From assembly GCA_937911395.1 (NCBI GenBank), contig CALDSI010000479.1, positions 1 through 48,286 on the forward strand: 48,286 nt of DNA. The letters are read 5' to 3'. Made by a program: the position numbers and the translations under genes. The stretch comes from an uncultured Labrenzia sp. GTDB taxonomy: Bacteria > Pseudomonadota > Alphaproteobacteria > Rhizobiales > Stappiaceae. How positions within the stretch are numbered: the first letter of the stretch is position 1; every line of letters begins with the position of its first letter. Positions 1 to 9,351 of the stretch are shown here, piece after piece. Below the pieces are notes generated by a model. That model was given only the letters and a program-made list of their open reading frames with translations. It had not been told where the DNA came from and did not search any database.

Positions 1-1815
1 GATGGCGAACTCGCCCAACTTGCTGATGAACTTCGGACAGATGTTATTGATATCGTGTCAGAAACCGGCGGGCATCTGGGGTCTGGTCTTGGCGTTGTCG
101 AACTCACGGTCGCCCTCCACGCAGTGTTCGACACACCGGAAGACACACTGATCTGGGACGTAAGCCACCAGTGCTACCCGCACAAAGTCCTGACCGGCCG
201 GCGTGATAGAATGCGGACCTTACGCAAAAAGGACGGCCTTTCCGGTTTCACAAAACGCAGCGAGAGCCCGTATGATCCGTTCGGCGCTGCCCACTCGTCC
301 ACATCGATCTCTGCCGGGCTTGGATTTGCCGTTGCCCGGGATCTTGAGGGCAAGGACGGCCATGTCGTCTGTGTCATTGGCGACGGCGCGATGACAGCCG
401 GGATGGCCTATGAAGGGTTCAACAACGCCGGCCACCTCAACAGCCGCATGATTGTCATTTTGAACGATAACAATATGTCGATTTCCCCGCCGACAGGCGC
501 ATTATCGGATCATCTCAACACCCTCGCCCAGTCCGATACAGTCCAGCGGGAACGCAGCTTTTTTGAGAATATGGGATTTGCCTATCATGGCCCCGTCGAC
601 GGGCATGATGTCCCAGCCCTCTTGGCGACACTGCGCAATTTGAAAGAAGAAGGCACGGGCCCTGTCGTCTTGCATGCCATCACCCGCAAAGGCGCTGGCT
701 ATGTCCATGCGGAAGCGGCAAGCGACAAATATCATGGTGTTTCGAAGTTCGATGTTCCGTCTGGAAAACAGTCCAAGTCAGTCCCGAAAGCGCCGAGCTA
801 CACCAAGGTCTTTGCCAACGCTTTGATTGAGGCAGGCCGGCAGGAAGATCGTGTTATCGCCATCACTGCAGCCATGGCGGAGGGAACCGGCGTTGACCTG
901 TTTGGAAAACAGTTTCCGGATCGCAGTTTCGATGTCGGGATCGCAGAGCAACATGCAGTGACCTTTGCCGGAGGGCTTGCCGCCAGCGGTATGCGGCCGT
1001 TCTGCGCGATCTATTCCACCTTCCTGCAGCGCGGCTATGATCAGGTCGTCCATGATATCGCCCTGCAAAACCTTCCCGTGCGCTTTGCCATTGATCGTGC
1101 AGGTCTTGTCGGAGCCGACGGCGCGACCCACGCCGGAGCCTTTGATATCGGTTTCCTTGCAAATCTACCGAATTTCACGGTCATGGCCGCCGCTGACGAG
1201 GCGGAACTGGTTAACATGGTCAAGACAGCGACCGAACACGACCTTGGCCCCATCGCTTTCCGGTACCCGCGCGGTGAAGGAACGGGCACACAACTTCCCG
1301 TTCAACCGGTTGCTTTGCCGATCGGAAAGGGCCGGATCGTCGACATCGGGCACACAGCCGCGCTGTTGTCTTTCGGTGGACGGCTGGAACAATGCCTTGA
1401 AGCCCGAGCACTTCTGTCCGCACTCGGCATCTCCGTCACGGTCGCCGATGCCCGCTTTGCAAAACCGCTCGATACGGAACTGATTGAAGACCTTGTTGAG
1501 ACTCATGAGTTGCTGGTGACAGTCGAAGAAGGCGCGACCGGCGGCTTTGGGGCCCTCGTTTTGCATCACCTTGCAGATCAAGGTTTGCTGGATGGACGCT
1601 GCGGCGTGCGAACAATGACCCTGCCTGATACGTTCATATCGCAAGCATCACCTTGGGAAATGTACAATGAAGCCGGGTTGAATGCGCGCCAGATCGCCGA
1701 TCTCGTGCGTGTGACCCTGTCACGCATGGGTCACGGATTACGGGCAACACTCGGCGGTGGGACCACCCGAATACAAGATCGCCCCTTGTGGACACACCAC
1801 GCGGAGGACCGTTGA
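1..1815 (+). CDS. dxs: 1-deoxy-D-xylulose-5-phosphate synthase, 5' end outside window
   Basis: Makes 1-deoxy-D-xylulose 5-phosphate from pyruvate and glyceraldehyde 3-phosphate with thiamine diphosphate, the first step of the MEP isoprenoid pathway in the cytosol. The reading frame is open from base 1, and its first residues ([12 protein letters not shown]...) already match the DXS N-terminal region. The GTG at 55 is therefore internal and the true start lies upstream. About 604 residues are visible; the family has about 620-645. The thiamine diphosphate motif runs from GDG (near 379) to NDN (near 463), and [12 protein letters not shown] in the pyrimidine-binding domain is near 940-975. The next gene downstream is a cobalamin-binding protein. 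In phototrophic alphaproteobacteria a dxs copy often sits in the photosynthesis gene cluster, which may lie to the left; that is inference. Confidence 0.96.
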
Positions 1816-1873
1816 AGACCGGCACTTATTGTTTCAAAATCGAATAGGTGATCTCGATTGGCGGAGGAGAGTT

Positions 1874-1894
1874 TGTATAGTACGATCTTATACA
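1874..1894. promoter_or_regulatory. Inverted repeat upstream of the cobalamin-binding gene
   Basis: TGTATA and TATACA form a perfect 6-base inverted repeat with 9 bases between, in the 122-base gap between dxs and the next gene and 43 bases before its start codon. The size and symmetry fit a dimeric repressor or activator site. It is not the TGT-N12-ACA spacing of PpsR/CrtJ sites: the outer TGT and ACA are 15 bases apart. No convincing -35/-10 pair was found near it. The binding protein is unknown. Confidence 0.35.
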
Positions 1895-1937
1895 TGGAGG
1901 AACTTGACCGCCTGGGCCGAGACATCGGGAGGGGGAA

Positions 1938-2867
1938 TTGGCCTACAAAAACGAAAGCGAGCGGCAGACGGAAAAAAATAAGACACCGTCGACACTTGCT
2001 GATAATGGCCAAACGTTAACGGCAGACGATACTGCCAATCTGTCGCTGCAGGATCTCACCGTTCTGGAGTCGATTGTGCGTGGGCAAGTGTCCGGTTTGG
2101 TCGGAGCACTTCATCCAAAGGCCGACAAACTTATCGTAAACGGAAGCCCGGTTTCAGGTCTCGATCTTCGTTTGCACCCCGAACTGGATGAGCGAGCGCG
2201 CGAAATGCCATCCATGGATGTTGCAATTTCCTATCGTGTGCCGTTCCTAAAATCGCTGATCGACCCGGACCCCCGCCACCACAGGGATCTGATCGAGGAA
2301 CTTGTCCAGACGAATATCCCACTTCAGACATTGGCCATTCATTTGCTTTGCCCGATCGCAACCGAGCTTGGCAACTACTGGTGCACCGATGATGCCGATT
2401 TCATGCAGGTTGCCGTGGCTTCAACCCGGCTGAGCAACATTGTCAATCATCTGACCCATGCAGGTCCTCAGCCATCCTTACCAACCTCGGCCAAGCGGAT
2501 CTTGCTGGCGCGGTCCCACGGAACCAAACATACGCTCGGCGTGAACCTTGTCAGAATGTGTTTCCGCGACCTTGGATGGATCGTCGATGGTGGTGCCGAT
2601 ATGGAAATCGGTGACACTATGTACATGCGTTTGTCTGCGCGGCCGTATGACATGCTTGGTCTGTCTGTCGGACGTCTCGAAGAGGCCAATGACTGCATGG
2701 AGGCGATACAACGCTGCCGGTCAGAAGCGGCGACCGACAACACAAAGATCGTCATTGGTGGTGCTGCTGTGCTGACCCATCCAGACAGGTTCCAGAACAT
2801 AGGGGCTGATTTTGTCGCTCTCTCCGCTTTGGAAGCCATCACGTTAGCCGAACAAGCCGTTGGATGA
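1938..2867 (+). CDS. Cobalamin (B12)-binding domain protein, PpaA/AerR-like
   Basis: Probable cytosolic regulator of 309 residues. Residues about 95-160 form the helical region that precedes B12-binding domains (PFLKSLIDPD...LGNYWCTDDADFMQVAVASTRL). Residues about 180-305 are a Rossmann-type cobalamin-binding domain, with the KHTLG histidine in the position of the lower axial ligand; the usual DxHxxG aspartate is replaced by threonine. The C-terminal IGGAAV segment fits the nucleotide-loop pocket. The start is TTG at 1938, preceded by a strong GGAGGGGG ribosome site at 1928-1935. Relatives (AerR, PpaA) tune photopigment gene repressors of the CrtJ/PpsR type. There is no methyltransferase or radical-SAM part, so an enzyme role is unlikely. 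Regulation of nearby isoprenoid or photosynthesis genes is inferred from context only. Confidence 0.75.
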   Translation: MAYKNESERQTEKNKTPSTLADNGQTLTADDTANLSLQDLTVLESIVRGQVSGLVGALHPKADKLIVNGSPVSGLDLRLHPELDERAREMPSMDVAISYRVPFLKSLIDPDPRHHRDLIEELVQTNIPLQTLAIHLLCPIATELGNYWCTDDADFMQVAVASTRLSNIVNHLTHAGPQPSLPTSAKRILLARSHGTKHTLGVNLVRMCFRDLGWIVDGGADMEIGDTMYMRLSARPYDMLGLSVGRLEEANDCMEAIQRCRSEAATDNTKIVIGGAAVLTHPDRFQNIGADFVALSALEAITLAEQAVG

Positions 2868-3065
2868 TCTTGTCCTGAACTGAAAAATCCATTGCCTCAC
2901 CCTACGGCAGATTTGCCAACTAAAGGCCTGCTTGGCAACTCAAGCGTTGCCGGGTAACCAAAACGTCCCAAACCAAATCTCTCAGCGCCTCTAAATTGTC
3001 CTTTTTGTTCTCAAAACGGAGAGGCTCTGCCGTCCAACAGGCTTTACACACTGCAGGCATGACAG

Positions 3066-3452
3066 ATGTCGGATACCCAAAAAGAAGAACAGAAAAGAGA
3101 CCCATCGGTGACACCCGGTTTCACAGACGGCAAAGGCCCAGCAACCAAACTCATCAAAATGTGCCTAGGCCTCGAACCCCATGGCGAGCAGGAAGTCATT
3201 GAACTCGGCCATGCGCTTTACCGGCAGTGGGAGCAGTTTTATCGCCCCACCAGCGGGTCAGTTGCAAAAACCCCGGACGAGATCCGGCAAAATACAAACC
3301 GCATGCGCGATTTCCTAACGAGCCTCAGAGTTCTGCAGTCCCATGGTGCACTCCCGCACCCTGAAGACCCCGATCCAGACACCCCCTACCCGGCTTTGAG
3401 CCTCGGCCTGATTAATCAGTGGTGGCATGGCATCGGCGACTGGAAGGCATAA
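3066..3452 (+). CDS. Conserved-looking hypothetical protein, 128 residues
   Basis: Not recognised. It is a soluble, polar protein with no signal peptide or membrane segment. The N-terminal 20 residues are charged (SDTQKEEQKRD), followed by a helical region (TKLIKMCLGLEPHGEQEVIELGHALYRQWEQFY) and a proline/aspartate-rich stretch before a C-terminal IGDWKA. The ATG at 3066 is chosen because it opens the longest frame with bacterial-looking composition; no strong ribosome site is visible. A frame at 2996-3202 overlaps it and is judged a shadow. It ends just before a strong hairpin and converges with acnB. The preceding 198 bases (2868-3065) show nothing clear. Confidence 0.55.
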   Translation: MSDTQKEEQKRDPSVTPGFTDGKGPATKLIKMCLGLEPHGEQEVIELGHALYRQWEQFYRPTSGSVAKTPDEIRQNTNRMRDFLTSLRVLQSHGALPHPEDPDPDTPYPALSLGLINQWWHGIGDWKA

Positions 3453-3457
3453 ATAAA

Positions 3458-3481
3458 GGGCGGCAGAGATCTCTGCCGCCC
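3458..3481 (-). terminator. Hairpin terminator downstream of acnB
   Basis: A perfect 24-base palindrome centred on AGATCT with arms of GGGCGGCAGAG type. Read on the minus strand it is followed at once by TTTATTTAT, so it looks like an intrinsic terminator for acnB, whose final stop is about 60 bases upstream. On the plus strand it directly follows the hypothetical gene but lacks a good T run, so termination there would be weaker. Confidence 0.8.
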
Positions 3482-3539
3482 GATTCATTATCTGTTGACT
3501 CGGCTGCCGGAAAACCGGCCGCCTCGTTGTCGTTTTCGC

Positions 3540-6332
3540 TTAGAAATGAACTGATTTCGTATCCAACGGTTTTTGCAGCGGCGGTGCGAATTTGGTCAGG
3601 TCGATGCCTTCAACCGCTTCCTTGTATTCATCCAATTCCGGGGTCCGGCCCAGAATTGCCGAAAGAACCACAACCGGTGTCGAAGCCAGAAGGGATTCGC
3701 CCTTTTTGGTCTCTGAATCGGCTACGACGCGGCCCTGGAAGAGACGGGTCGAGGTGGCAAGAACCGTATCACCCTTGGCGGCCTTTTCCTGGTTACCCAT
3801 GCAAAGGTTACAACCAGGACGCTCCAGATAGAGAATGTTCTCATACTCTGTCCGGGCGGCTGTTTTCGTAGCTCGGTCATCAAACTCGAAGCCGGAATAC
3901 TTTTCGAGCACTTCCCATTAACCCTCTTCCTTCAACTCATCGATGATGTTGTAGGTCGGAGCCGCGACAACGAGCGGGGCCTTGAATTCGACCTTGCCCT
4001 TGGCTTTTTCCAGGTTCTTCAGCATCTGGGCGACAATTTTCATATCACCCTTATGGACCATACAGGATCCGACAAAGCCAAGATCGACCTTTTTCTCACC
4101 GCGATAGTAGGAGACCGGCCGGATGGTGTCGTGCGTATAGCGTTTGGAGACATCCTCGTTGTTGACGTCCGGATCGGCGATCATCGGCTCGACGATCTCA
4201 TCCAAATCGACAACAACTTCGGCGAAGTATTTGGCGTTGCCGTCAGGGGTCAAGGCTGGTTTTTCACCAGATCTGATTTCGGCAATGCGGCGGTCGGCCT
4301 TGTCGATCAGGCCCTGCAGGACCTTGTTCGCGTTATCCATACCCTTGTCGATCATGACCTGGATACGCGATTTGGCCAGTTCCAACGAGCCGATCAGCGT
4401 GTCATCGTTGGAGATACATATGGAGGCTTTCGCCTTCATCTCGGCGGTCCAGTCGGTGAACGTGAAGGCCTGGTCCGCGAGCAGCGTGCCGATGTGCACC
4501 TCGATGATCCGGCCCTGGAAGACGTTGTCGCCATGCTGTTTCAGCATCTGCGCCTGAGTGGCATGAACCACATCGCGGAAGTCCATCCAGTCCGCCATCT
4601 TGCCCTTGAAGGTCACTTTGACCGATTCCGGGATCGGCATGGTTGCTTCGCCGGTGGCAAGGGCGAGCGCGACAGTACCTGAATCCGCGCCAAAGGCCAC
4701 CCCCTTTGACATGCGGGTGTGGCTGTCGCCGCCGATAATGATGTCCCAATCGTCCACTGTGATGTCGTTGAGCACCTTGTGGATCACGTCTGTCATGGAA
4801 TGATAGACGCCCTTCGGATCGCGGGCGGTGATCAAACCGAAATTGTTCATGAATTTCATGAGTTTCGGAATGTTCGCCGGGGCTTTAAGATCCCAATCGG
4901 ACGCGGTGTGGCAGCCGGACTGGTACGCACCGTCAACGGTCGGGGAAATAACCGTTGCCGCCATGGCTTCCAGCTCTTGGGAGGTCATCAGGCCCGTGGT
5001 GTCCTGAGAGCCGACAATGTTGACCTTGACCCTGACATCAGAGCCCGCGTGCAGCACCTTGCCCGGTGTCGAGCCGACAGCATTGCGGTTGAAGATCTTT
5101 TCAACAGCGGTCAGACCCTGTCCATCGTGGGAGATTTCCTTGGACGGTGCAAAGACGAGAGGAGCCTCGACGCCGAGCGTTTCGGCAGCAAATGTCTGCA
5201 GTTTCTTTCCGAAGACAACGGCGTAGGAACCGCCAGCCTTCATGAACTCGACCTTTTGAGGGGTAAAGGCGGAAGCAACGTCGGTCAGTTCCTCGCTGCC
5301 GTCCTCACTCAACAATTTCATGGTTTTGGAGTTGATGGTAAAAACCGTGCCGGTTTCAACGGAGTATTTTTGCTCCAGAACAGGACTATCGTCGTTGTTC
5401 AGGATCGGCTTCCCGTCAGGCCCCAGTTTCTTGACCCAGTTCTTCAGGTCGATGCCAATGCCACCAGTCACACCAACGGTGGTCAGGAAGATCGGCGAAA
5501 TACCGTTGGTGCCGGCGACAACCGGTGCAATGTTGACGAACGGAACATAGGGGCTCGCCTGCTTACCTGTCCAAAGCGCAACGTTGTTTACGCCAGACAT
5601 ACGGGAGGACCCGACACCCATCGTTCCTTTTTCGGCGATCAGCATCACACGCTTGTCGGGATGTTGAAGCTTCAGCGCTTCGATTTCCTTCTGCGCGGCC
5701 TCGGAAATCATGCATTTCCCATGCAGCTCGCGATCTGAGCGGGAATGGGCCTGGTTGCCCGGCGACAGAAGGTCGGTCGAGATGTCGCCTTCACCAGCGA
5801 TGTAGGTGACGACCTTAATCTCTTCTTCCACATCCGGAAGTTTGGTGAAGAACTCGGCCTTCGCGTAGCTTTCCAGCACGTCCTTTGCGACCGTGTTGCC
5901 TTCATCAAAGGCTTCTTTCAGCCGGTTAGTGTCGGCCTCGTAGAGGAAGACCTGTGTCTTCAGAACCTCTGCGGCGTTCTTGGCGATGCCTGCATCGGTG
6001 CCCAGAGCAAGATCCAGCAATACTTCGACGGACGGACCGCCCTTCATGTGCGACAGCAGCTCAAAGGCGAAGGTTGGGGTGATTTCCTCAACAACAGCTT
6101 CTCCAAGGATGATTTCCTTCAAGAAGGCTGCTTTCACGCCTGCAGCGCTCGTCGTGCCCGGCAGAGTATTGTAGATGAAGAATTTCAGTGAATCGGCCCG
6201 GTGTTCGTTGCCAGTGTCCCTGATTTGCGCGATGAGCTCGGCAACAAGGGCCCCGTCTTCGATCGGCTTCGGGTGCAGGCCCTGGCCTTTGCGGGTTTCG
6301 ATCTCGTTCAAGTAGTCTGTGTAAAGGCTCAT
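3540..6332 (-). pseudogene. acnB: Aconitate hydratase B with an in-frame stop codon
   Basis: AcnB interconverts citrate and isocitrate through cis-aconitate in the TCA cycle and uses a [4Fe-4S] cluster. The frame opens with ATG at 6332 (ribosome site GGAGG 4 bases upstream) and aligns to the family from end to end, 930 codons plus stop. A TAA at 3918-3920 interrupts it after residue 804. The frame does not shift: translation resumes as WEVLEKYSGFEFDD and ends at 3540. The first cluster cysteine (GFVGSC, codon 4062-4064) precedes the stop. The CxxC pair (GCNLC, codons 3810-3812 and 3801-3803) and the STRLF arginine segment follow it, so the 804-residue product should lack activity. A GTG at 3911 could start a 123-residue C-terminal piece. 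A sequence error, a real nonsense mutation or stop readthrough are all possible. No acnA is in view. Confidence 0.9.
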
Positions 6333-6426
6333 GGAACCTCCGGCGTCCTAATAATGGGATGAGCTTCAGAGCCGGACTGCACAAGAACTGGCTCGCCGGG
6401 GAAGCTCGCTGCGCACTACATAATTC

Positions 6427-6455
6427 AGTATACAACGGTATGCAATATTGTTCAC
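6427..6455 (-). promoter_or_regulatory. Candidate acnB promoter with two direct repeats
   Basis: On the minus strand, a GTGAAC -35 box (6450-6455) and a TATACT -10 box (6427-6432) are 17 bases apart, about 95 bases before the acnB start. Overlapping the spacer and -10 box are two near-identical octamers, TTGCATAC (6438-6445) and TTGTATAC (6428-6435), exactly 10 bases apart. They would lie on the same face of the helix, as expected for an operator. GTATAC-type half-sites are common for GntR-family regulators, but the regulator is unknown. Confidence 0.45.
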
Positions 6456-6747
6456 CGAATTAATTTTGGTTTGATTGTTTCCTAACCGCATACCACTGAG
6501 AAAGTCTGAATGGGCATTCGAATTTCCGCATCTCTCGCGGTCGCATGGCGCAAAATGCTGTGAGGCACGGTGCCCTACTGCGGAAATCTTCTTAGCCCCT
6601 CTAATCTAGCATTTTTACATGAACAAAGGAATGAACACCGTTCTGAGCGGATGCTCCGTTTGGAGCCGTCGGATATTCAGATTATCTGATTACTAAGGTC
6701 TAGGCTCAGGACCCATCAATTTGATCGATGAAGAGAACCGATAACCG
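6456..6747. other. Non-coding spacer between acnB promoter and symporter gene
   Basis: No credible gene was found. The only structure noticed is a 13-base palindrome (TCAGAT-T-ATCTGA, 6677-6689). A 25-codon ATG frame at 6619 has no recognisable features and is not called. No poly-T hairpin is visible after the symporter gene that ends at 6748. Confidence 0.5.
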
Positions 6748-7629
6748 TCAAAGCAGGCTGTCGGGAATTTTCTGTTCCGCGGCCGTGTTCGCCCGCCGGA
6801 AGATGAGCGTCACCAACGTCGACGTGATCACGATGAACAGGGAGTAGAGCGCCGCTACAGCCATGATCCCTTGTTGCTCGTCGCTCGGAAAGGTCAGGGC
6901 AATGATGGCAACAGCCAGCGGTCCATTCTGAATACCAGTCTCCAAAGCGATTGTCCGAACGTTGCGCGGATGAAGCTTCAAGGACCGGGCGAAGAGATAA
7001 CCAACCAAAATCCCGAAGACACCGAGCATGATCGCGGCGAAATAAGTTGCTGGCGTGGTTGTCAGAAGGAATTGCCAGTTCCGCGGGATCCAGGAGATTG
7101 CGATGAAGGCGATAAAGAACAAGGCCAAAGCCGATCCGAAAAACTCTGTCACTGCTCCGATATTCGCACTGATTTTCCGTAAACCCATACCGATCGCGAC
7201 TGGGACCAACAGGATCACCAGGGTTGCGATGATATTTTCTCGAGGGATTTCGAGATCCAACGCCGTGGCGTAGATCACAAGGACAATTGGAATGAGGATG
7301 ACACCAAATACGGTCGAAGTGACCGTCATGAGAACCGACAACGCCAGATTGCCTTTGGAGAAATAGGCAAAAATGTTCGATGTCGTGCCACCCGGCATGC
7401 AGGACATGATCAAGAGCCCGATTGCAATCGGCTCGGGCAATGCCAAAGCCAGTGTCATCAGGAAGCCGATGAACGGCATGAAGCCATATTGCGAGATGAC
7501 ACCAACGGCGAGACCATAGGGCCGGCGCAGTGCCAGATAAAAGTCGCGTGGGGTCAGGGACGCGCCCATTCCCAGCATGATGACAAAGATCATGGCCGCC
7601 AGGAGCGCCTGTTCAAATGGTCCGACCAT
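6748..7629 (-). CDS. Bile acid:sodium symporter (BASS/SBF) family transporter
   Basis: Inner-membrane secondary carrier of 293 residues, the usual size for bacterial SBF proteins, with about nine to ten hydrophobic segments along its whole length. Family signatures include the early MLGMGASLT segment (residues about 20-28), the SCMPGGTTSNIFAYF crossover region (about 80-95) and ETGIQNGPLAVAI (about 233-245), which matches the second sodium/substrate crossover. The start is ATG at 7629, six bases after the stop of the upstream acyl-CoA ligase. Its ribosome site GGAG lies at the end of that gene, so the two are probably translationally coupled. Bacterial members carry bile acids, 2-keto acids or other organic anions. 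Pairing with a CoA ligase suggests uptake of a carboxylate that is then activated, but the substrate cannot be read from the sequence. Confidence 0.9.
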   Translation of the reverse strand: MVGPFEQALLAAMIFVIMLGMGASLTPRDFYLALRRPYGLAVGVISQYGFMPFIGFLMTLALALPEPIAIGLLIMSCMPGGTTSNIFAYFSKGNLALSVLMTVTSTVFGVILIPIVLVIYATALDLEIPRENIIATLVILLVPVAIGMGLRKISANIGAVTEFFGSALALFFIAFIAISWIPRNWQFLLTTTPATYFAAIMLGVFGILVGYLFARSLKLHPRNVRTIALETGIQNGPLAVAIIALTFPSDEQQGIMAVAALYSLFIVITSTLVTLIFRRANTAAEQKIPDSLL

Positions 7630-7635
7630 GGATTG

Positions 7636-9351
7636 TTACTCCGCCGCCTGCAGGTCTTCTGCGCGCAGGTCTTTTCTGAGGATCTTGCCAACGTTTGATT
7701 TGGGCAGGTCGTCCCGGATCTCAACTCGTTTGGGCACTTTGTAAGCCGTGAGGTGTTCCTTGCAATGGGCCCGGATCGCCTCTTTGGTCAGGCTCTTGTC
7801 GTTCAGAACAACATAGGCCTTCACCGCTTCCCCTGTCGTATCATCCGGAACGCCAATTACGGCGGCTTCAAAGATACCGGGATGCAAGGCTAGGCAATCT
7901 TCGACCTCGTTCGGGTAAACATTGAAGCCCGACACGACAATCATGTCCTTCTTCCGGTCAACGATGTAGAAATACCCATCCGGCTCCATTACGCCGATAT
8001 CGCCTGTCAGAAACCAGCCATCCCGCATGACGATCGCGGTCTCTTCCGGCTTGTTCCAGTACCCAGCCATGACCTGCGGTCCTTTGGCCGCGATTTCCCC
8101 GCGCTCGCCCTGCGGCACCGGATTGCCATCATCGTCCACACAGCGCAACAAAGTCGACGGCAACGGTATCCCGATTGACCCGTCACGCGTCTTGCCGATC
8201 GGGTTGAAACTGAGAACAGGTGAGGTTTCGGTCAGCCCGTAGCCTTGCAAAACCGGCCGGCCAGTCACGTCCTCCCATCTGCGCGCGACATCTGCCTGCA
8301 AGGCCATGCCACCGGCCGAGGAAAACTTCAGATATTTTGGCGGGCTGTCCAGAAACCACGTCTCGTTGCAAAGACCATTGAACAAGGTGTTCACCCCGCT
8401 CATCCAGGTGATCTTGTAATTCTCAAACGCGCGTTTGAGATTGGTCAGCGGCCGGGGATTTGGGATCAGAATATTCCGCGATCCGATCCAATAAAAGGCA
8501 AGCAAATTCAGCGTAAACGCGAAGATATGGTAAAGCGGAAGAGCCGTCAGCGCGACCTCCTCACCTCGTTGCACCGCCGGGCACATCTCCAGCGATTGCT
8601 CCATGTTCATGAGCAGGTTCTTGTGGGTAAGCATCGCGCCCTTCGCAACACCCGTCGTCCCGCCGGTGTATTGCAAGCAGGCCACATCGTCGGGCTCGAC
8701 GGACTGATGATAGGCATCAACTTCGACATGGTCGCGGGTTTTGTGTTCCCGCCCCGCGGCGAGTGCTTCCGGAAAACGGATATGCGGGACTTCGATAGGT
8801 TTGACCGACCGGTCCCAGTATTTTTGTACCAACCCGATGATGCCGCGCGGCAATGAAGGCAAAAACTCCGCAACCCGCGTGACGATAATGTTGGGGATCG
8901 GATGTCCCTTTGTTGCAGCCGGGATCTTGTCGGCAAACATGTCGACAATCACCAGCGCATGCGGTTCCGCATCCTGGAACTGGCGCGCCATCTCTTCTGC
9001 TGTGTAGAGCGGGTTAACGTTCACCAGAACACAGCCGGCCTTGAAGACACCAAAGGCAGCAATTGGAAACGACAGGCCGTTCGGCATTTGCAATGCTACG
9101 CGGTCGCCCTGCGCAAGTCCTGCCACCTCCCGAAGATAGACCGCAAAGGCGTCTGACATTTCATCGACCTGCTCGAAGGTCAAAGTGCCGTTCATGCCGT
9201 TGTGCATGCAGGTCGTGAAGGCCGGGGCAGACTTGTAGGTGTCTGCTGCTGACCGGATCAAATCACTGATCGTGCGATAGGATGCGGCCTCTATATCGGA
9301 CCGCACATCGGGTCCATAAAACGCGGTCCACGGACGATCGCTTGATGTCAT
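7636..9351 (-). CDS. AMP-binding long-chain acyl-CoA synthetase, FadD-like
   Basis: Activates a fatty or other carboxylic acid to its CoA thioester through an acyl-AMP intermediate; FadD-type enzymes act at the inner face of the membrane. At 571 residues it has the usual family length. Motifs in order: the P-loop YTGGTTGVAKGA near residue 230, GYGLTETSP near 375, the YFYIVDRKKDMI hinge near 455-465, and a C-terminal PKSNVGKILRKDLR with the catalytic lysine. The start is ATG at 9351 with GGGGGG five bases upstream. It forms a two-gene unit with the symporter downstream. Chain-length preference is not deducible: a bile acid, aromatic acid or fatty acid could be the substrate, so fadD is not asserted as the symbol. 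Confidence 0.9.
   Translation of the reverse strand: MTSSDRPWTAFYGPDVRSDIEAASYRTISDLIRSAADTYKSAPAFTTCMHNGMNGTLTFEQVDEMSDAFAVYLREVAGLAQGDRVALQMPNGLSFPIAAFGVFKAGCVLVNVNPLYTAEEMARQFQDAEPHALVIVDMFADKIPAATKGHPIPNIIVTRVAEFLPSLPRGIIGLVQKYWDRSVKPIEVPHIRFPEALAAGREHKTRDHVEVDAYHQSVEPDDVACLQYTGGTTGVAKGAMLTHKNLLMNMEQSLEMCPAVQRGEEVALTALPLYHIFAFTLNLLAFYWIGSRNILIPNPRPLTNLKRAFENYKITWMSGVNTLFNGLCNETWFLDSPPKYLKFSSAGGMALQADVARRWEDVTGRPVLQGYGLTETSPVLSFNPIGKTRDGSIGIPLPSTLLRCVDDDGNPVPQGERGEIAAKGPQVMAGYWNKPEETAIVMRDGWFLTGDIGVMEPDGYFYIVDRKKDMIVVSGFNVYPNEVEDCLALHPGIFEAAVIGVPDDTTGEAVKAYVVLNDKSLTKEAIRAHCKEHLTAYKVPKRVEIRDDLPKSNVGKILRKDLRAEDLQAAE

Follow-up and report, generated by a model that had tools for sequence, protein, structure and literature searches.

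The acnB locus and its interruption

The window, that is, the whole stretch of 48,286 nucleotides analyzed here, is part of a 4.86 Mb draft genome (563 contigs, 90.2% complete, 0.84% contaminated) that apparently belongs to a Roseibium species. On its minus strand, an open reading frame runs from 6332 to 3918 over 804 codons and then meets a TAA at 3920..3918, while the same frame stays open for 125 more codons (3917..3543) until a natural TAA at 3542..3540. The peptide around the interruption reads ...DELKEEG*WEVLEKYSGFEF..., with both sides in register. The frame on the two sides of the stop confirms what had been read from the sequence alone, that an in-frame TAA at 3918..3920 splits an aconitase B gene without loss of register. 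The parts of the gene are as follows.

3540..6332, minus strand: acnB frame of the long AcnB type (NF006690 profile), 930 codons plus the natural stop, with one interruption
3918..6332, minus strand: upstream part, 804 codons, covering the N-terminal region and the greater part of the aconitase core; of the cluster cysteines, C757 only
3918..3920, minus strand: in-frame TAA, codon 805; an aspartate codon in 109 of 109 related loci
3540..3917, minus strand: downstream part, 125 codons, with C841, C844 and R863 (STR arginine), up to and including the natural stop

Against NF006690 (PRK09238, bifunctional aconitate hydratase 2/2-methylisocitrate dehydratase, long type), whose whole length and cluster motifs are matched here, the 804-residue part scored 849.5 bits and the whole frame 966.7 bits, both above the curated cut-off of 782 bits. 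Stop aside, the product is 91.5% identical over its length to its best relative, which rules out a chance open frame, and protein identity to the AcnB proteins of the same genus is 84-92% among the matches listed. Compared with the NF006690 proteins, the gene differs in the TAA at codon 805 and in three additional radical substitutions at conserved positions. The search of its own genome gave no other AcnB match, and no account of this interrupted acnB appears among the titles and abstract openings of the papers listed.

AcnB of Escherichia coli (PDB 1L5J; TIGR00117) can be aligned over most of the length, with C710, C769, C772 and R791 all matched, but it is distant: the 804-residue part scored 322.8 bits against TIGR00117, the E. 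coli-type acnB profile with a curated cut-off of 1287.2 bits, and the 125-residue part adds 42.9 bits. As the 804-residue part spans positions 3-741 of the 844 in this profile, the shortfall is larger than the break alone would cause. The product is a divergent long-type AcnB, far under the TIGR00117 cut-off.

In the alignment to 1L5J, with residues counted on the alignment, C757 corresponds to C710 of the E. coli chain and is located before the stop, whereas C841 and C844 (C769 and C772) and R863 (R791) all follow it. We take C710, C769 and C772 to be the cluster ligands and R791 the active-site arginine of E. coli AcnB. This alignment bears out the earlier observation that the upstream part retains a single cluster cysteine and that the other two, with the STR arginine, lie past the stop. 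The 804-residue product does not combine all three cluster cysteines with the STR arginine in a single chain; going by the E. coli AcnB alignment, a product missing this arginine and two of its three 4Fe-4S ligands is expected to have no aconitase activity.

Codon 805 in related genes

Codon 805 was compared across 109 related loci (29 and 80 from two collections, one genome per species, with one near-identical pair included); neither collection yielded a second genome of the present species. The residue is aspartate in every one of them (95 GAC, 14 GAT) and glutamate in none, so that the gene carries a presumably inactivating lesion not shared by intact orthologues, as is characteristic of a pseudogene. 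Within the genus the codon is GAC in 29 of 29 loci, and TAA is thus two changes away, both of them transversions. The sequence-only reading had supposed a one-base origin from a glutamate GAA; since the relatives carry aspartate, two changes are needed, and a single step from a glutamate codon, seen in none of the 109 loci, is rejected. The position aligns with Tyr753 of E. coli AcnB, which makes an intermediate through tyrosine conceivable. A templated copy event was also considered and rejected: the window contains GGTTAATGG only once as an exact sequence, and copies with at most one mismatch (8 found, 6.9 expected) are at chance level.

Among the 71 genomes of the order with an AcnB match (four of them partial), a stop was flagged in no more than two, G000 and G256. 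The flagged stop of G256 is the natural end of the gene, with 854 aligned residues free of stops. Of the 40 acnB genes in the genus, the one studied here is the only one with a stop.

Other private changes and selection on acnB

It had been stated that the gene shows no damage apart from the TAA. This does not hold, as three further substitutions lie at sites that are invariant or nearly so.

4896..4898, minus strand: codon 479, V to D (V479D); residue invariant in 109 relatives
4878..4880, minus strand: codon 485, Q to P (Q485P); Q in 108 and E in 1 of 109 relatives
3867..3869, minus strand: codon 822, P to T (P822T); residue invariant in 109 relatives

At nucleotides that are invariant in the 109 other loci, the gene has four private changes (codons 479, 485, 805 and 822), all of them transversions at first or second codon positions. 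Among the 29 genus relatives, such changes are absent from 22, number one or two in six and reach seven in one (L029); this contrast is flattered, because a relative whose close neighbor is also included has little chance of showing a private change. At the residue level, there are three private changes at otherwise invariant residues, a number equaled by five relatives outside the genus and exceeded by two (L059 with ten and L029, within the genus, with four). The excess is therefore modest. The private sites form two tight pairs (codons 479/485 and 805/822), with a simulated p of about 0.002 in a test chosen after the data had been seen.

Pairwise dN/dS against nine Roseibium relatives, computed over the entire gene, was 0.05-0.07, which does not exceed the values seen between intact genes. 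For the part after the stop, eight of the comparisons gave 0.02-0.10, and in the ninth dS was saturated. All of these values are rough, with a dS of acnB near or above 1 throughout. Since the ratio is low both before and after the stop, any loss of the gene must be very recent, or absent. With regard to relaxation after the lesion, these low ratios (rough, at high dS) are set against four private changes at invariant nucleotides. The private changes can be read as signs of relaxation, which counts for a pseudogene; however, clustered changes that are all transversions also fit faulty reads, and two transversions in one codon would be an unusual first lesion, both of which count against it.

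Possible translation at or beyond the stop

One way in which the interrupted gene might still yield a working enzyme is separate translation of its downstream part, for which a candidate start is present.

3909..3911, minus strand: in-frame GTG, candidate restart at codon 808, 10 nt downstream of GAGGG

On paper, it is possible that translation terminates at the TAA and restarts at the GTG at 3911, and that the two chains assemble into an enzyme with cluster ligands from two polypeptides. The GAGGG spaced 10 nt ahead of the in-frame GTG would suit such a restart, as would a downstream part that is under purifying selection and retains C841, C844 and R863. However, GAGGG, itself coding sequence, is present in 50 of the 109 relatives and the GTG at codon 808 in 12, all free of the stop, so neither is a new signal; an out-of-frame ATG (3918-3916) overlaps the stop and would compete with the restart; the interruption separates cluster ligands within the catalytic region; and the arrangement occurs in none of the 109 relatives. 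We consider a split working enzyme very improbable.

Read-through or recoding of the UAA, by which some full-length AcnB would be made, had also been raised, and it would agree with a frame open on both sides of the stop and a low dN/dS. It is unsupported by the tRNA genes: ARAGORN found 29 tRNA places, and none of the 28 with an identified anticodon, a set that is incomplete and without Asp, Trp and other isoacceptors, reads UAA. Moreover, TAA ends other open reading frames in the window (e.g., at 7636, 26424 and 31904), and the stop is found in 0 of 109 relatives, which makes this explanation scarcely credible. Nothing in the evidence favors either read-through or a split enzyme.

The apo form of E. 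coli AcnB binds mRNA, and the 804-residue product might likewise be kept as a cluster-free regulatory protein. In favor of this, its N-terminal part is present in full and purifying selection acts on it, but the changes at the conserved residues 479 and 485 sit in the retained part, and only one of 40 genus genes has the stop; we give this possibility almost no weight. Even jointly, read-through, a split enzyme and a regulatory truncation are unlikely to account for the locus.

A divergent tract within conserved synteny

The window is syntenic with three sister genomes, G003, G006 and G007, and the interrupted gene lies in a tract that stands out from its surroundings.

3453..6749 (ends approximate), no strand assigned: divergent tract, 69-86% identity per 150-base bin to G003, G006 and G007

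DNA identity of the acnB tract to the three sisters is approximately 80%, compared with flanks that are 91-94% identical (blastn) to G003 and G007 and 87-93% identical to G006. Across the same tract, the identity between G003 and G006 is 80-98%. The boundaries of the tract fall between genes, and the flanking synteny is correct. All three sisters carry an extra 2.3-2.4 kb at the tract; in G003, a gene for a haem peroxidase of 689 residues, which carries RTX repeats, adjoins acnB, and this gene is missing from the tract here. A search of the genome under study (90% complete) with the G003 peroxidase gave matches only to its calcium-binding repeat region.

In the tree, this acnB groups with those of G013, G027 and G036, outside the clade of the syntenic sisters, with weak support (84/88). 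Forcing it to join the sisters was rejected at the borderline (AU p 0.042), the group having been chosen after the tree was seen. AcnA from the genome under study shares 98% identity with that of G003 and G007 and 95% with that of G006. The divergent tract and, weakly, the tree point to a probable exchange of the acnB segment in one or another of these lineages. A search for a plasmid source of the tract returned no close one, the 40 records being all at 60-80% identity.

A B12-binding gene near acnB (approximately 2100-2850) is divergent in G006, with 71-83% identity per bin to the window and 74-86% to G003. Judging from this stretch, segment exchange at the locus may not be confined to the present genome and has perhaps been repeated. 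The start of the window (1-3452) comprises dxs and the B12-binding protein gene, and it is the edge of what in G003 looks like a photosynthesis gene cluster (L116, 2700-13534), whose open reading frames, as far as we can judge, resemble BchP, PucC, BchG, PpsR, BchN and BchB.

A possible read or assembly error

A chimeric assembly would resemble an exchanged acnB segment. In the corresponding explanation, few or faulty reads would underlie the acnB tract, or reads of another strain or species would have been joined in by the assembler, and the TAA and the clustered changes would be absent from the organism. The draft state of the genome (563 contigs, 90.2% completeness), the private changes that are clustered and all transversions, and the low dN/dS of acnB are all compatible with such an error, and a divergent acnB between well-matching flanks is what would be expected of a patch from another source. 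In addition, in a comparator draft, G321 (150 contigs, without an acnB hit), the AcnA gene is interrupted by an in-frame TAA (L198, C16:19900-23100; among the matches listed), at a position where the compared relative G148 has glutamine.

The remainder of the contig does not have the appearance of poor sequence. The 30 other window genes within 1-40368 are full-length when compared with G003 and G007, save for the cut first gene and differences in start codons, and in the 16 genes compared with all three sisters, private nonsynonymous and synonymous changes number 64 and 361 here versus 93 and 491 in G006. A generally error-rich contig is thus unsupported for 1-40368, with 30 full-length genes and no nonsynonymous excess. 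A test of the window genes for inner stops is by itself uninformative, because the genes were picked as open frames. A coding-potential scan over 355 kb of the genome, the window included, gave 31 candidates for interrupted genes, of which acnB had the highest upstream score; the others were judged by eye, without homology, to be gene junctions or antisense shadows, and the scan is weak.

These intact neighboring genes speak against an error, as do the start and end of the divergent tract between genes with correct flanking synteny. Moreover, the near-complete sister G006 (3 contigs) is itself divergent in the neighboring gene at approximately 2100-2850, which makes natural exchange plausible, and a missing acnB is tolerated in the genus. 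A read or assembly error is a serious possibility in our view, albeit one that we would not bet on.

AcnA and the redundancy of aconitases

A full acnA elsewhere in the genome had been proposed as a check, and one is present: an intact AcnA of 907 residues is encoded on another contig (C121; TIGR01341, 1387.7 bits). PF00330 has four places in this genome, namely AcnB, the AcnA on C121 and two LeuC-type proteins.

AcnB is found over the cut-off in 40 of 45 genus genomes, this one included, and the five without it (G022, G024, G031, G035 and G064) all have AcnA. A full AcnA is present in 43 of the 45; in G066 it is in two contig pieces, and G002 has none. This last genome (Roseibium, 2 contigs, rated 100% complete) has AcnB without AcnA, the reverse of the five genomes with AcnA only. 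In the sample of the order, AcnB occurs in 71 of 397 genomes and AcnA, scored at E 1e-150, in 358; 39 genomes lack AcnA, and 15 of the 20 listed have AcnB.

AcnB is an optional or alternative aconitase here and not the main one by default, so that its loss need not be costly. The initial statement that AcnB is normally the main TCA-cycle aconitase finds no support here: AcnA is the usual aconitase in the sample of the order, AcnB occurs in a minority, and this AcnB is of a divergent long type. Within the genus, either of the two aconitases seems able to stand in for the other.

Origin and significance of the interrupted gene

On balance, we lean toward reading acnB, the gene of an optional aconitase, as a very recent pseudogene whose allele is divergent and was probably exchanged, and our best call ranks this explanation above a read or assembly error. 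This Roseibium lineage would have received the divergent acnB allele at its usual site by homologous recombination with another Roseibium-like lineage, and the stop in codon 805 would have arisen later in the exchanged allele, as would the radical changes at three other conserved positions. The product of 804 residues would then be inactive as an aconitase, and AcnA, encoded on another contig, may carry the TCA cycle, such that the loss of AcnB is tolerated.

Recent single-lesion pseudogenes of redundant metabolic genes are a known kind in bacteria. The present gene resembles them in its one stop, its low divergence and its intact partner AcnA, and it differs from them in the two substitutions within codon 805 and in the divergent, probably exchanged allele. 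If real, the locus offers a snapshot of AcnB loss in a genus with seemingly interchangeable AcnA and AcnB, and it provides a further case of gene exchange affecting one housekeeping locus. Should it be an artefact, it warns against inferring metabolism from one stop in a draft genome. Neither outcome alters existing knowledge of aconitases.

AcnB proteins 82-86% identical to the one of this alphaproteobacterium are also found in records titled Flavobacterium, Sporocytophaga and Nocardioides (L043, L069, L076, L106, L107, L108 and L113), which would reflect either transfer or mislabeled or contaminated assemblies.
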